From positions 1-39,589 of the forward strand of contig DYST01000001.1 of the NCBI GenBank assembly GCA_020726325.1: a stretch of 39,589 bases of DNA, read 5' to 3'. Each line of letters opens with the position of its first letter. Within the stretch, counting starts at the first letter, position 1. The DNA comes from Thiomicrospira cyclica (GTDB lineage: Bacteria; Pseudomonadota; Gammaproteobacteria; Thiomicrospirales; Thiomicrospiraceae). Position numbers and translations under genes: made by a program. Below the pieces are notes generated by a model. That model was not told the origin of the DNA and ran no database searches. It worked only from the letters and a program-made list of their open reading frames with translations. Positions 7,393-12,018 of this stretch are shown here, in pieces.

Positions 7393-7902
7393 ATGACTGA
7401 CCTAAAATCCCTCATTGCAGAAGTACCCGATTTCCCCAAAGCTGGCATTTTGTTTCGCGATGTATCTCCCCTGCTCAAAGCAGAATTTACTGCCACAATT
7501 GATGCCATGAGCGACTTATTCACGACTGAAGAGTGGGCAACAATTGACGTTGTAGCAGGTATTGAATCACGCGGCTTTATTTTTGCCGCTGCCCTCGCTT
7601 ATAAAAACGGCAAAGGATTCGTTAAAATCCGTAAACCTGGTAAATTACCCAATGTCGCAGCGAGTGTTAACTATGGCTTAGAATACGGTTCTGATAGTCT
7701 ACATATGCAAGCAGGCGACGGCAGTCGTGTGTTAATTTTGGATGATTTAATCGCTACTGGCGGCTCGATGGGGGCAGCGGCAGAACTCTGTACAACCGTT
7801 GGTTTTCAGGTTGTTGGCATGGCGTGTTTGGTTGACTTGGCGAGCTTAAATAGCTTCACGTGGCATGATATGAAAGTACGTTCGGTCATTCAATATCACT
7901 AA
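7393..7902 (+). CDS. apt: Adenine phosphoribosyltransferase
   Basis: Purine salvage enzyme that makes AMP from adenine and PRPP in the cytoplasm. The 169-aa protein is complete. PDFPKAGILFRDVSPLL at the N-terminus and GIESRGFIFAAALA are APT hallmarks. The PRPP-binding loop is VLILDDLIATGGS (about residues 115-127), with the two consecutive aspartates expected in type I phosphoribosyltransferases. KIRKPGKLP is the flexible catalytic loop. A good ribosome site (AAGGAAGAG) precedes the ATG. It stands alone: a terminator-like hairpin follows and its plus-strand neighbours are unrelated. Confidence 0.96.
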   Translation: MTDLKSLIAEVPDFPKAGILFRDVSPLLKAEFTATIDAMSDLFTTEEWATIDVVAGIESRGFIFAAALAYKNGKGFVKIRKPGKLPNVAASVNYGLEYGSDSLHMQAGDGSRVLILDDLIATGGSMGAAAELCTTVGFQVVGMACLVDLASLNSFTWHDMKVRSVIQYH

Positions 7903-7908
7903 ACAAAA

Positions 7909-7930
7909 ATAGCCCTAACACTGGGGCTAT
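7909..7930 (+). terminator. Hairpin after apt
   Basis: ATAGCCC (7909-7915) pairs perfectly with GGGCTAT (7924-7930) around an 8-nt loop, starting 7 nt after the apt stop. The 3' side continues CTTCTC rather than a long T run, so it may be an inefficient terminator. Confidence 0.55.
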
Positions 7931-8051
7931 CTTCTCATATAACTTCATAAGATCGAATATAAATCACAAACAAAAAAGCATAAAAGGGCGTAGAATAAAC
8001 GCACAATAAAAACAACTGAACGTCCAAAGACACACCAATGGGAGCACAATC

Positions 8052-8906
8052 ATGATTAGCATTAACACCAACAGTAACTACAGCTCACCCATCACCAGCA
8101 ATATAAATAAAAACAGTGAGATACAACAAAAACTCATTAACCAGCTTGCTTCTGGTGTGGTGCGCAACTCCGACAACCCCGCTGGCACAGCGATTGTTAA
8201 TGGCATGATGGCACAATTGAATAGCAGTACGCAGGGTATGCAAAATGCCAATGATGGCATTTCTGTGCTCCAAACTGCCGATGGTGCTTCTAGCGATGTC
8301 ACCGATTTGTTGCAACAACAGCGCGGACTTGCATTACAGTCGATGAACGGCACTTACAATGCGCAAGATCGAAGCGCGATGAATGCCCAATATCAGCAAC
8401 TGACAGCAGAAATTGACCATATTGCCACCAGTACCAGTTTTAATGACGCACCGCTCATGGCAAATCTATCGAGTACGGGTGCTGTGCAAAATGGCAATCC
8501 AGCACCTGTCAACATTAATACGGGTAATGGCAACACCAGCATTCAACTGGGCAACTTTAGTACCAGCGCGACAGGTGGTGTTTTTGGCAATAGCCCCTTT
8601 AATACAACCGATATTAGCAGCGATAGCAATGCATCAAATGCCCTCAACAGCATAGATAGTGCCATTGGCAATATCAGCGACCTAAGGGCAAACTTTGGCG
8701 CAACGCAAAATAGCTTAACGTCAACTATCGATAATATCAGTAATAATAGCGTGAACCTATCTGCCAACATGAGCCAAATCCAAGACACTGACTATGCCAG
8801 AGCGATATCCGTTTTATCACAAGAAGGTATTTTGCAACATGCTGGGGTAGCCATGTTAGCGCAATCAAATCATAACGAACAAAATGTTATGACCTTGTTG
8901 AGATAA
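8052..8906 (+). CDS. Compact flagellin
   Basis: The flagellar filament subunit or a paralogue of it. In this 284-aa protein the conserved D0/D1 domains are present at both ends. The N-terminal part (about 1-140) has LASGVVRNSDNPAGTAI, the counterpart of the flagellin LSSGLRINSAKDDAAG region, and NANDGISVLQTADGA. The C-terminal 75 residues (LNSIDSAIGNISDLRANFGA onward) match flagellin C, ending with a QSNHNEQNVMTLLR tail like the usual Q-A-N-x-x-x-x-x-V-L-x-L-L-R. The central variable domain is only about 60 residues and is Asn/Thr/Ser-rich. The first residues (MISINTNSNY) differ from the usual MAQVINTN. GGGAG sits 8 nt before the ATG. A FliA-type promoter is not evident: TAAATCAC and GCATAAAA about 10 nt apart match only weakly. 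No other flagellar gene is in the window. Confidence 0.88.
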   Translation: MISINTNSNYSSPITSNINKNSEIQQKLINQLASGVVRNSDNPAGTAIVNGMMAQLNSSTQGMQNANDGISVLQTADGASSDVTDLLQQQRGLALQSMNGTYNAQDRSAMNAQYQQLTAEIDHIATSTSFNDAPLMANLSSTGAVQNGNPAPVNINTGNGNTSIQLGNFSTSATGGVFGNSPFNTTDISSDSNASNALNSIDSAIGNISDLRANFGATQNSLTSTIDNISNNSVNLSANMSQIQDTDYARAISVLSQEGILQHAGVAMLAQSNHNEQNVMTLLR

Positions 8907-8913
8907 TTCGTAC

Positions 8914-9180
8914 TCAAGCATACCGCGCTGCTGCTTCCTTTAAACTATCAGCAATTTGCACACGCAGCGACTGAGGGGCAAGCACTTCGATGGCTGCTCC
9001 CTGCCCTAAAATCCACCACGTGAGCTGCCATGTTTCAAAGACACTGGCAGTCAGCAAAAATTGATTTTCATGATTAGGGTCTGGTTCAATGCATTGATCT
9101 TTCGATAACCGTGTTTCACGCAAATGCTGTGCGAGGTGGTCTTGAATCAAAGCCTTAAGGTAACTACTCAGTCTATACAT
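8914..9180 (-). pseudogene. WYL-domain regulator, C-terminal remnant
   Basis: The 88 residues match only the end of a YafY/WYL-type transcriptional regulator. HLRETRLSKDQ is the last part of the WYL domain. Then come TWQLTWWILGQGA, IEVLAPQSLR and a final helix of the C-terminal WCX extension. The N-terminal HTH and most of the WYL domain, roughly 200 residues in the family, are missing. An in-frame TAA lies six codons upstream of the ATG, so this is not a longer gene with a missed start. The ATG is at the edge of a perfect inverted repeat (9178-9213), and there is no good ribosome site. It ends 8 nt from the flagellin stop, convergently. It is probably a decayed gene; expression of the short piece cannot be excluded. 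Confidence 0.7.
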
Positions 9181-9213
9181 ATAGTGTTTTATGTCTTACC
9201 AGAACACTATATG
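9178..9213. repeat. 36-bp perfect inverted repeat
   Basis: CATATAGTGTT (9178-9188) is the exact reverse complement of AACACTATATG (9203-9213), with a 14-nt spacer. The repeat marks the point where the WYL fragment begins. It could be an operator, the scar of an element that removed the 5' part of the gene, or a weak hairpin. Only one copy is seen in the window. Confidence 0.75.
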
Positions 9214-9624
9214 TTGTTTTTATGCTTTTTTAATACGGCTATTTTTAAGCAAGAAATGCTAAAATTTCTCTCAAAACATGCATAAAATCACTTAACTTAT
9301 TGATTTAAGGGACTGAGCAGTTACTAAAAACAATGCTTTTTTAATGCGATTGCCCTACGGTCGTTGTAAGATTTCTGTTTTTACAAAAAAAATGAAAATA
9401 ATTTTGATTTTATAAAATATCGATTAAAAACAATCTATTAAAAACGAAAAAATGACACTTATGCCAACCAAAAAAAGCGAAAAGCACGACTTTTTGTTTA
9501 TCGTGAGTGCGATACCGCTAATGCTTCGACAAACTTAATTCCCAAGAAGTAGCCATCGCAATGCTAGATGCGTGGAATGATGTCAGTGGCGACTCTTTGA
9601 ATGATTGAGCAAGGCGTAAAACCA
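9214..9624. other. AT-rich stretch without an intact gene
   Basis: These 411 bases are distinctly AT-rich, with many A and T runs, and no frame stays open long enough for a normal protein. Two short coding-like pieces sit at 9450-9608. One reads RLFVYRECDTANASTN and stops. The next frame then reads SQEVAIAMLDAWNDVSGD to a TGA at 9608. This is what a frameshifted remnant would give, but I do not recognise the family. Short direct repeats ATTAAAAAC occur at 9423-9431 and 9437-9445. No promoter, origin or RNA gene can be supported. Confidence 0.5.
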
Positions 9625-9858
9625 TTAACGCAAATAATCATCGCGTAATTGTTGTGCCAAGGGTAAGCGTCTTAACTTCGCCAGTGCGCTAGCTTCGATT
9701 TGACGTACATCTTGAATCCCTATCTCTAATTGCTCGCTTATTTCATCTGGTGTCATTTCATCAAAGCCATCAAGACCAAAACGCTTTTTGATGACTTGTA
9801 ACTCCTGTTTTGTCAGAATTTCCGTATATGAATTTAATTGAGAATTGGTTAATCGCAT
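9625..9858 (-). CDS. Stand-alone sigma-70 region 4-like protein
   Basis: A 77-aa protein whose residues 15-74 align with region 4 of RpoD-type sigma factors. LTKQELQVIKKRFGLDG matches the first helices, MTPDEISEQLEIG the helix-turn-helix, and VRQIEASALAKLRR the recognition helix. LRDDYL at the end matches the sigma-70 tail. Regions 1-3 are absent. Relative to E. coli sigma-70, the residues that read the -35 element are changed at R584 (Ile) and E585 (Gln), while R588 and Q589 are kept. The start is the ATG at 9858 because TTTGGAG stands 8 nt upstream; an in-frame ATG at 9927 has no ribosome site. Its role is unknown. It might bind the RNA polymerase beta flap or DNA as a small regulator, or be a sigma-gene remnant with an intact frame. 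Confidence 0.7.
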   Translation of the reverse strand: MRLTNSQLNSYTEILTKQELQVIKKRFGLDGFDEMTPDEISEQLEIGIQDVRQIEASALAKLRRLPLAQQLRDDYLR

Positions 9859-9946
9859 CGTAAGCACTCCAAATTGATTGATATCAGCCTTCCTTATCGA
9901 TAATAAAGAGACACAATAGCGTACCATTGTAATCGCTTATTTGCTT

Positions 9947-10111
9947 TTAGCTCACACCATGATTCACATATCCACACGCAATGGCAATTAACTGCTGTTT
10001 TGGCGATAAAATTCTATTTTTTGCAAGGCTACTAAAGCACCATCGGCTAAAAAATATCAGCATACCGAGCAGGATTAGGGTTAATCTGAACCAAAGACTG
10101 CGCGTAATCAT
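9947..10111 (-). CDS. Possible 54-aa membrane protein
   Basis: An open frame starting MITRSLWFRLTLILLG. It has one clear hydrophobic helix (about residues 6-24) after a short positive N-terminus, and then a basic and polar tail. GAGGTG lies upstream, about 11 nt from this ATG and 4 nt from an overlapping out-of-frame ATG at 10118 that gives only a 23-codon peptide. It ends 88 nt before the sigma region 4-like gene on the same strand, so the two might share a transcript. I do not recognise a family, and short open frames can be accidental. Confidence 0.35.
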   Translation of the reverse strand: MITRSLWFRLTLILLGMLIFFSRWCFSSLAKNRILSPKQQLIAIACGYVNHGVS

Positions 10112-10198
10112 TTCTCATTGCTCACCTCTTTTTTGTATCATTAGATGCGTTTAACGCACAGTGCGACAGAATGTGACTTACAGAAACACACAGACATA

Positions 10199-10226
10199 AA
10201 AAAGCCGACAGTTCAATCGGCTTTTT
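10199..10226 (-). terminator. Rho-independent terminator of the nuo operon
   Basis: A perfect 10-bp stem, AAAAAGCCGA (10199-10208) with TCGGCTTTTT (10217-10226), around an 8-nt loop, 18 nt after the DUF2818 stop. On the minus strand it ends in six T. The symmetric A/T flanks mean it could also stop transcription coming from the left. Confidence 0.9.
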
Positions 10227-10244
10227 AACCACATAAGAAATGGG

Positions 10245-10559
10245 TTACTCAGCAACGGGCTGTTGTTTTTTACGTTGCTGATGCCAAATAAAACCAGGGA
10301 AAGCCATAATAGCAAACATAAACAAGGTCGAAGCGAAGAACTCCCAATCTTGATCTTTGAGCGTACCCGTTAATTGCCACTCTAAACCCCAACCAGCGGC
10401 CAGAGCAATAAAGGCATAGACAAACCACTCAACCAATCGCAACCAAGCGGATTTTCGTGTCAAAGTTTTAATCGCAAAGAAACGGTTATTTAACCAAGGT
10501 AAACTTGCCAAAACCAAACACAAGAGCAAATAAGCCCAAATCGTTCCTTGCGCAATCAT
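10245..10559 (-). CDS. DUF2818 membrane protein at the end of the nuo operon
   Basis: A 104-aa protein with three probable membrane helices (about 7-24, 40-60, 78-95) and a basic cytoplasmic tail KKQQPVAE. The arrangement and the LPWLNNRFF motif fit DUF2818, a family typically found directly after nuoN in betaproteobacteria. The function is not established; position suggests a link to complex I. AAGGG stands 6 nt before the ATG, 25 nt after nuoN. The operon terminator follows. Confidence 0.8.
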   Translation of the reverse strand: MIAQGTIWAYLLLCLVLASLPWLNNRFFAIKTLTRKSAWLRLVEWFVYAFIALAAGWGLEWQLTGTLKDQDWEFFASTLFMFAIMAFPGFIWHQQRKKQQPVAE

Positions 10560-10584
10560 GATTTGCCCTTTTTTTGATTGTTCA

Positions 10585-12018
10585 TTAATACATCATCACT
10601 TGAGCAAACAGACTCAACATGCCATTTGGCAAAATACCCAAGACCAAAACCAAAGCACCAACCATCATCAGTCCGTAGCGTAAAGAAACAGTCGCAAAAC
10701 CAGCATCCATCATATCTGCAGCAGGTTCATCAAAATACATCGCTTTAATCACACGCAGATAATAGAAAGCACCAATAATTGACATCACAACAGCAAAGAC
10801 TGCTAACGACACCATACCGACTTCAACCAATTGCGTCAGAATAACCAATTTTGCATAGAAACCAACCAACGGTGGCACGCCAGCCATCGACAATAACAAC
10901 ACCAACATAATCAATGCCATTAACGGATTACGACGACCTAAACCAGCCAAATCGGCAATATTATCTGCCTCAAAACCATGACGCGATAAGGCAAGGATCA
11001 CACCGAAAGCACCGATACTCATCAAACCATAAATCACAACATAAAACATTGCTGCAGCATAACCATCGATGTTACCTGCAATAAAACCCATGAGCACAAA
11101 ACCCATATGAGAGATTGCTGAATAAGCCAATATGCGTTTTAAGTTCGTTTGCGCAATGGCAACGATGTTACCAACAAGTAGCGACACAACAGCCAAAATA
11201 ATCAGTAAGCTCTGCCACTCAACGATCGTCGACTCTAAGCCTTCAATCAACAAGCGGAACATCAGCGCAAAGGCAGCAATCTTCGGTGCGGCTGCTAAAA
11301 AGATCGTAATCCCTGTTGGAGAACCATGATAGACATCAGGAACCCACATATGGAAAGGTGCGATACCAAACTTAAACGACAAACCAACGATAACAAACAC
11401 CAAACCCATGCTTAAGACTAACGTCGGCTCTGCAATGGATACCGCCTGATAAATTTGATCTAAGCGCAATGAACCCACAACACCATAGATTAACGACATA
11501 CCGTAGAGCAACAAACCCGTTGCCATCGCGCCCAAAACAAAATACTTAATCGCAGCCTCAACCGCTGTTGATGAGTTTTTATGCATCGCAATCATGGCAT
11601 AAAGTGCCAACGACATGATCTCCAAGCCCATAAACAAGCTGACCATATCGTATGCCGAAGCTAACACCATCATGCCCAGCAAGCTAATCATGCCCATAAC
11701 ATAATATTCGCCACGCTCAATACCGCGTACCAGTAAATAATCACGCGCAAAAACAAAGACGACAACAGTCATTAATAACATCGAGACTTTGAGAACGTCA
11801 GCAACACCATCACGAATAAAGCCACCATTGAACAACTGCACCGATTCTGTCGAAAAGGTTGCTAAGATGACACCAACAATCATCACTAAAGAGACCAGTG
11901 CTAACTGAAAGGTTAGTGCTGGATAACGTTTTTCCCAAAAGGTATCACCTACCAGCAATGCCATGCTGCTTGCCAATAACAAAAGCTCAGGTGCTAATAT
12001 ATGTAACATCATATCCAT
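10585..12018 (-). CDS. nuoN: NADH-quinone oxidoreductase subunit N
   Basis: An antiporter-like proton-pumping subunit in the membrane arm of complex I. Its 477 aa agree with the family. It has about 14 membrane helices. Conserved antiporter features are visible: FHMWVPDVYHGSP, LKRILAYSAISHMGF with the lysine of the proton channel, and GVPPLVGFYAKL. The predicted start MDMMLH has no strong ribosome site, and the later in-frame ATGs (codons 3 and 4) are alternatives. It lies 45 nt after nuoM. Confidence 0.96.
   Translation of the reverse strand: MDMMLHILAPELLLLASSMALLVGDTFWEKRYPALTFQLALVSLVMIVGVILATFSTESVQLFNGGFIRDGVADVLKVSMLLMTVVVFVFARDYLLVRGIERGEYYVMGMISLLGMMVLASAYDMVSLFMGLEIMSLALYAMIAMHKNSSTAVEAAIKYFVLGAMATGLLLYGMSLIYGVVGSLRLDQIYQAVSIAEPTLVLSMGLVFVIVGLSFKFGIAPFHMWVPDVYHGSPTGITIFLAAAPKIAAFALMFRLLIEGLESTIVEWQSLLIILAVVSLLVGNIVAIAQTNLKRILAYSAISHMGFVLMGFIAGNIDGYAAAMFYVVIYGLMSIGAFGVILALSRHGFEADNIADLAGLGRRNPLMALIMLVLLLSMAGVPPLVGFYAKLVILTQLVEVGMVSLAVFAVVMSIIGAFYYLRVIKAMYFDEPAADMMDAGFATVSLRYGLMMVGALVLVLGILPNGMLSLFAQVMMY

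Follow-up and report, generated by a model that had tools for sequence, protein, structure and literature searches.

A minus-strand open reading frame at 9625-9858 of the DNA analysed here, a stretch of 39,589 nucleotides from Thiomicrospira cyclica (the window), would encode 77 residues resembling region 4 of a sigma-70 factor. The question is whether this frame is a genuine gene and, if so, where a lone region 4 (sigma-4) came from and what it might do. The features of the locus are:

9625..9858, minus strand: sigma-70 region 4-only protein, 77 aa (PF04545, TIGR02393, codon score, dN/dS)
9867..9870, minus strand: ribosome-binding site GGAG, 8 nt upstream of the ATG at 9858 (read from the sequence)
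9670..9753, minus strand: helix-turn-helix part, residues 36-63, with a changed recognition helix (alignments and helices of the model)
8914..9180, minus strand: C-terminal (WCX) remnant of a WYL-domain regulator, 88 aa (PF25583, 51.2 bits)
10198..10222, minus strand: terminator-like hairpin and T run following the nuo/DUF2818 genes (by eye; absent from the pattern scan)

Reading frame and domain identity

The frame runs from ATG through 77 codons to TAA with no internal stop and is preceded by GGAG, in agreement with the preliminary description, which gave no strand and had called it intact and equipped with its own ribosome site. An alternative ATG at 9927 would lengthen it by 23 codons. The codon score is +0.19 bits per codon for the 77-residue frame vs -0.48 for these extra codons; because the latter look non-coding and GGAG precedes the ATG at 9858, this is a better start than 9927. 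The score of 0.19 exceeds that of every one of 40 spurious ORFs (60-110 aa, located inside other window genes; maximum 0.055) and lies within the span of 22 long window genes (0.09-0.51).

Comparison with relatives points the same way. Over 39 codons shared with the partial copy in a same-genus genome (G003), dN is 0.38 and dS 1.63 (NG86), giving a dN/dS of ~0.23, a value that covers 39 codons only and records selection over the time since G003 diverged, which need not persist at the present day. Codon positions 1, 2 and 3 are identical in 25, 32 and 16 of the 39 codons, and in 33, 35 and 14 of 52 codons for the relative in G569, a genome of the same phylum, where dS is saturated. Codon usage and dN/dS together support the reading of the 77-residue frame as a genuine protein.

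The domain assignment is consistent across methods. The protein matches PF04545 (Sigma70_r4) with 40.8 bits against a cut-off of 24.1 (E 1.5e-10), and residues 3-73 align to positions 165-235 of the 238 in TIGR02393, the NCBIfam model of the RpoD C-terminus. Among PHROGs, a sigma-factor family matches best (40.1 bits), and RpoD region 4 sequences of the PDB match it at E ~1e-7. These alignments bear out the proposal that it is a single sigma-70 region 4, alignable to RpoD. When two RpoD queries were compared with 7900-10600 by tblastn, the region-4 match (RpoD residues 475-532 and 499-561) was accompanied by one further match elsewhere, at E 0.08 and taken as chance; sigma regions 2-3 are therefore not detectable around the gene, and the protein is not a complete sigma-70 factor. 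Both queries were partial (536 and 567 residues, the N-termini cut by their loci). Relative to RpoD/SigA, the window protein thus shares the alignment over residues 3-73, the fold, R588/Q589 and the core, and differs in lacking detectable regions 2-3, in six changes of the recognition helix and in identity (~30-41% to RpoD region 4 of relatives).

An AF2 model built from an 18-row alignment has the region-4 fold (mean pLDDT 78.6), with a good helical core and both ends poor. It superposes on T. aquaticus region 4 with a Z of 9.5 (1.6 Å over 61 residues), and sigma factors or sigma region 4s head its structural matches. Other neighbours are present, such as UPF0122 (Z 8.8), and a Z near 9 is not strong for a small helical protein, as small helical folds readily give middling values. 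Since RpoD supplies most of the alignment rows, this result confirms the family and is no independent test of it.

A second candidate identity comes from MzaA, a sigma factor that belongs to the mza anti-phage system (PMC9523054). Its model (NF041931) is the second-best NCBIfam match of the window protein, at 41.6 bits against 44.7 for RpoD; the cut-off is 800 bits, and the window protein spans only 652-704 of the 726 model positions, which leaves it outside the MzaA family. For the related protein in G022, a genome of the same family, MzaA scores above RpoD (93.7 vs 83.7 bits). PADLOC calls MzaA for the window and G569 proteins; as MzaA is its only sigma match here, these calls do not discriminate from RpoD.

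The recognition helix and -35 reading

The preliminary description had also proposed an altered -35 readout. E. coli residue numbers were placed on the window protein by us from the alignment; R584, E585 and R588 are named in PMC2613000. The recognition helix reads GIQDVRQIEASALAKLRR in the window protein vs TRERIRQIEAKALRKLRH in a solved RpoD region 4. Compared with E. coli RpoD, the window protein carries T583G, R584I, E585Q, R586D, K593S and R596A, and it keeps R588 and Q589. The canonical -35-reading set R584/E585/R588/Q589 is therefore I/Q/R/Q, as first described; that account was correct for these four residues and had left out T583G, R586D, K593S and R596A. Several conserved residues of RpoD region 4 are lost.

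R584 and E585 are reported to contact -31 and -33; the published substitution E585Q relaxes -33 recognition, and changes at R584 alter -31 (PMC2613000). With both residues changed in the window protein, and given the effect described for E585Q in that source, the sequence supports a changed -35 readout, which may amount to altered, relaxed or no promoter reading. In the G003 copy, position 584 is Leu, Glu is kept at 585, and Gln, Asn and Met occupy 586, 593 and 596; the G022 and G569 proteins retain TRERIRQIE. Loss of R584 is common to the two same-genus proteins, and E585Q occurs in the window protein only among the four compared. Since the G003 protein is also aliphatic at 584 and non-basic at 586, 593 and 596, a part of the change is common to both proteins rather than private drift.

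Distribution and the neighbourhood of relatives

Among 62 genomes of the family, clear cases of a stand-alone region 4 are confined to the genome of the window, G003 (partial) and G022 (88 aa). The G003 copy is 49% identical to the window protein and is interrupted by a 100-N assembly gap, which hides its true length and a possible fusion. RpoD- and RpoH-length frames are present in all four genomes of the genus (own, G001, G002 and G003), and no stand-alone region 4 was found in G001 or G002. The G569 relative (71-84 aa) was found among 398 genomes of the phylum. A two-row profile at E 1e-13 recovered one of 369 class genomes (own) and two of 398 phylum genomes (own and G569), two samples that may overlap; this threshold was chosen to exclude RpoD and would also drop a G022-like protein, so that distant cases are missed. 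A 37-aa matching frame lies at a contig end in G078. Two further genomes (G016 and G029) hold weakly similar helix-turn-helix (HTH) proteins of 66-69 aa, shorter than the clear relatives:

L104:4674-4883: half-region-4 HTH protein, in phage- or insertion-sequence-like surroundings (by eye)
L105:4616-4816: half-region-4 HTH protein, in phage- or insertion-sequence-like surroundings (by eye)

Like the window protein, these stand alone and have an RpoD-like recognition helix; unlike it, they are without the first half of region 4. Homologues of similar length thus exist in related genomes, though sporadically (62 family and 398 phylum genomes), as expected of the stand-alone protein first proposed, and no full-length sigma parent was seen, the closest genomes searched being those of the same genus. 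Judged from these sequences, the sigma-4 gene is no ordinary gene of the family; its distribution is sporadic and of the island type.

Each clear relative (G003, G022 and G569) adjoins two or three of the following: a double AAA+ ATPase, an FtsZ-like protein, a DUF2779 nuclease and a WYL regulator. In G569, the order is dnaA, dnaN, recF and gyrB (by eye), double AAA+, FtsZ-like, a VapBC-like pair (by eye) and sigma-4, followed by an 80-aa protein, one further frame and the contig end; a guess by eye that a frame downstream of sigma-4 is DnaB-like was unsupported by Pfam or BLAST. In G022, it is WYL, AAA+, a 100-aa protein, sigma-4, PD-(D/E)XK and DUF2779; in G003, FtsZ-like, DnaB/DnaQ-like, the 100-N gap, sigma-4 and DUF2779. 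The AAA+ proteins of G569 and G022 are 39% identical over 698 aligned columns. The FtsZ-like proteins of G003 and G569 are 25% identical (E 5e-7), and that of G003 falls below the Pfam cut-off (23.8 of 33 bits). On a same-genus contig (L035:1630-2768), DnaB-like helicase C-terminal and DnaQ-like exonuclease domains share one frame beside an FtsZ-like GTPase. At L106:1912-3820, a WYL regulator of the same genus precedes a sirtuin-like gene (by eye), possibly marking another such island.

The double AAA+ family occurs in 24 of the 369 class genomes and in 20 plasmid records, 12 of which were read. Because it is uncommon, its presence beside two of the three sigma-4 genes exceeds chance by rough arithmetic (no formal test). 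Among 44 AAA+ loci read, WYL is present in at least 18 and DUF2779 in at least 7; these are lower bounds, as an annotated WYL at L140 was missed by the profile and some loci are truncated by contigs or windows. Such AAA+/WYL/DUF2779 loci look like defence-type islands. On a Rhodoferax plasmid, FtsZ-like (E 1.6e-6), AAA+, DUF2779, WYL and macro-domain genes stand together, and BREX genes adjoin one AAA+ locus. The double AAA+ recurs with WYL and/or DUF2779 at L103, L117, L120/L147, L121, L125, L133 and L144, some of which add an FtsZ-like protein, Sir2 or macro-domain genes; PADLOC matches of the AAA+ protein at these loci are mainly to IetA-type ATPases.

The small sigma-4 gene is present in two of the 44 AAA+ loci, both located through sigma-4 itself, so that sigma-4 is an optional part of the island at most and a general pairing with AAA+ is unsupported. 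A general pairing with DUF2779, suggested by G003 and G022, likewise failed: none of 21 class loci carries sigma-4 at E ≤ 0.001, in a survey that left uncounted two matches at E 0.65-0.86 and one 703-aa RpoD-like frame and in which several loci were short contigs.

Mobile elements were searched as well. Among the matches listed for the window protein (20 of 229 plasmid, 20 of 54 phage), region-4 matches are 35-45% identical; several are annotated RpoD-type sigma factors and many lie on unannotated stretches. The matches listed for the G569 protein against plasmids (60 of 170) and the G022 protein against phages (25 of 31) are likewise sigma factors or unannotated places. On the basis of the matches listed, phage and plasmid relatives were provisionally set aside. 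IMG/VR gave no relatives with the window protein or the two-row alignment as queries. Among the matches listed in a genome-contig scan are two clostridial fragments of 131 aa beside a recombinase-like gene (by eye). No plasmid DNA matched 8900-10250. FtsZ-like and DnaB/DnaQ queries gave nothing useful against plasmids and IMG/VR, and AAA+ gave two weak loci in IMG/VR. In the literature searched, no account of such region-4-only proteins or islands was recognised, which is no proof of absence.

Origin and possible role of the window gene

At the window locus, the sigma-4 gene sits between the nuo/DUF2818 genes, from which the terminator-like hairpin at 10198..10222 separates it, and the flagellin/apt side; in G001 and G002, nuoN and DUF2818 run on instead into a nadD-like gene (by eye). 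The flagellin gene beside apt (8052-8906, 284 aa) is 53% identical to a G002 flagellin, and no flagellar genes were noticed adjoining it. The WYL tail comprises the last 80 residues of the regulator and lies 445 bp beyond the sigma-4 stop. It aligns to residues 260-336 of the 339 in a same-genus WYL protein and is 45% identical to the C-terminus of a G003 WYL protein, and no trace of the remaining ~260 N-terminal residues was found near it. Used as a query, the fragment matches its own locus alone in the 1.85 Mb assembly (E ≤ 0.001). By our own post-hoc arithmetic, the chance of a single gene falling within 1 kb of another is near 0.1%; the WYL tail could still be a coincidence. No AAA+, FtsZ-like, DUF2779, DnaB/DnaQ or other island gene was found near the window sigma-4, so that, in contrast to its relatives, it is flanked by one island-type remnant; only a general AAA similarity occurs, at 29.4-30.0 kb. 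DUF2779 and the double AAA+ family were not found in the assembly, which is 81% complete and from which island genes could therefore be missing.

The reading that we favour, and to which we would give an even chance, is that this genuine sigma-4-only protein is a remnant of a defence-like island or serves one to this day, as a small co-regulator. The sigma-4 gene would have arrived with a horizontally spread island carrying WYL, double AAA+, FtsZ-like, DUF2779 and other genes in varying sets. This island would have been largely lost here, leaving the sigma-4 gene and the WYL tail between flagellin/apt and the nuo operon. Its product most likely retains the region-4 fold and would probably act as a small co-regulator of island genes by touching RNA polymerase (at the beta flap), promoter DNA or both, its -35 reading being relaxed or altered. 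The domain, the intact frame, the coding constraint in common with the G003 copy, the island-type neighbours of the relatives and the WYL remnant are observed; the island origin of the window copy, binding to RNA polymerase, a regulatory role and present-day use are inferred.

The main rival is that the frame is an inert, decaying relic, derived from an island now lost or from some longer sigma factor of one, and has stayed open by chance, its helix changes being drift. This is possible, if on balance doubtful. The adjoining WYL gene is truncated, no other genes were seen in the stretch holding both, several conserved region 4 residues have been lost, and a pattern scan of 8900-10600 found promoter-like sites at chance level (4 vs 4.1 expected), one of them (9987-9959) on the strand of the sigma-4 gene and ~100 bp upstream. 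Against inertness stand the intact frame with its ribosome site and gene-like codon usage, the dN/dS with the G003 copy and the partly shared helix changes.

Another possibility, close to what was first suggested, would be a beta-flap competitor or anti-sigma-like co-regulator of the host RpoD, maintained in its own right. Consistent with this, the fold and core residues of region 4 are kept and the base-reading residues changed. The gene's scarcity argues against it: G001, G002 and nearly all of the family are without a stand-alone region 4, and the G003 copy is partial. In addition, isolated E. coli sigma-4 is reported to be disordered in water (PMC4236625), which suggests that region 4 by itself may depend on a partner and that stable flap binding is not assured. 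We consider this reading unlikely. In view of the island-type distribution and the adjoining WYL remnant, a dedicated housekeeping co-regulator is less likely than an island-derived accessory regulator or a relic.

Phage anti-sigma factors target sigma region 4, as do many activators, and several known phage anti-sigma proteins grip it. A rather improbable extension would make the region-4-only proteins decoys of defence islands, which soak up phage anti-sigma or occupy the beta flap so as to block or sense the takeover of transcription by phage; the window and G003 proteins would then be a branch freed from normal promoter reading through loss of R584. Least probable is one half of a split sigma factor with a separate region-2 partner, for which SigO-RsoA of B. 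subtilis, with sigma-4 and sigma-2 on separate proteins, is reported precedent (PMC8103513), but tblastn with RpoD gave no region-2 match in the window at E ≤ 0.001 (a divergent RsoA-like protein could escape this), and inspection by eye of the ORFs at the relatives' loci showed none.

A region-4-only gene on accessory islands with AAA+, FtsZ-like and nuclease genes would offer a simple handle on how host RNA polymerase is acted on by mobile or defence elements. If the frame is a relic only, the gene would still mark a lost island and explain an odd ORF.
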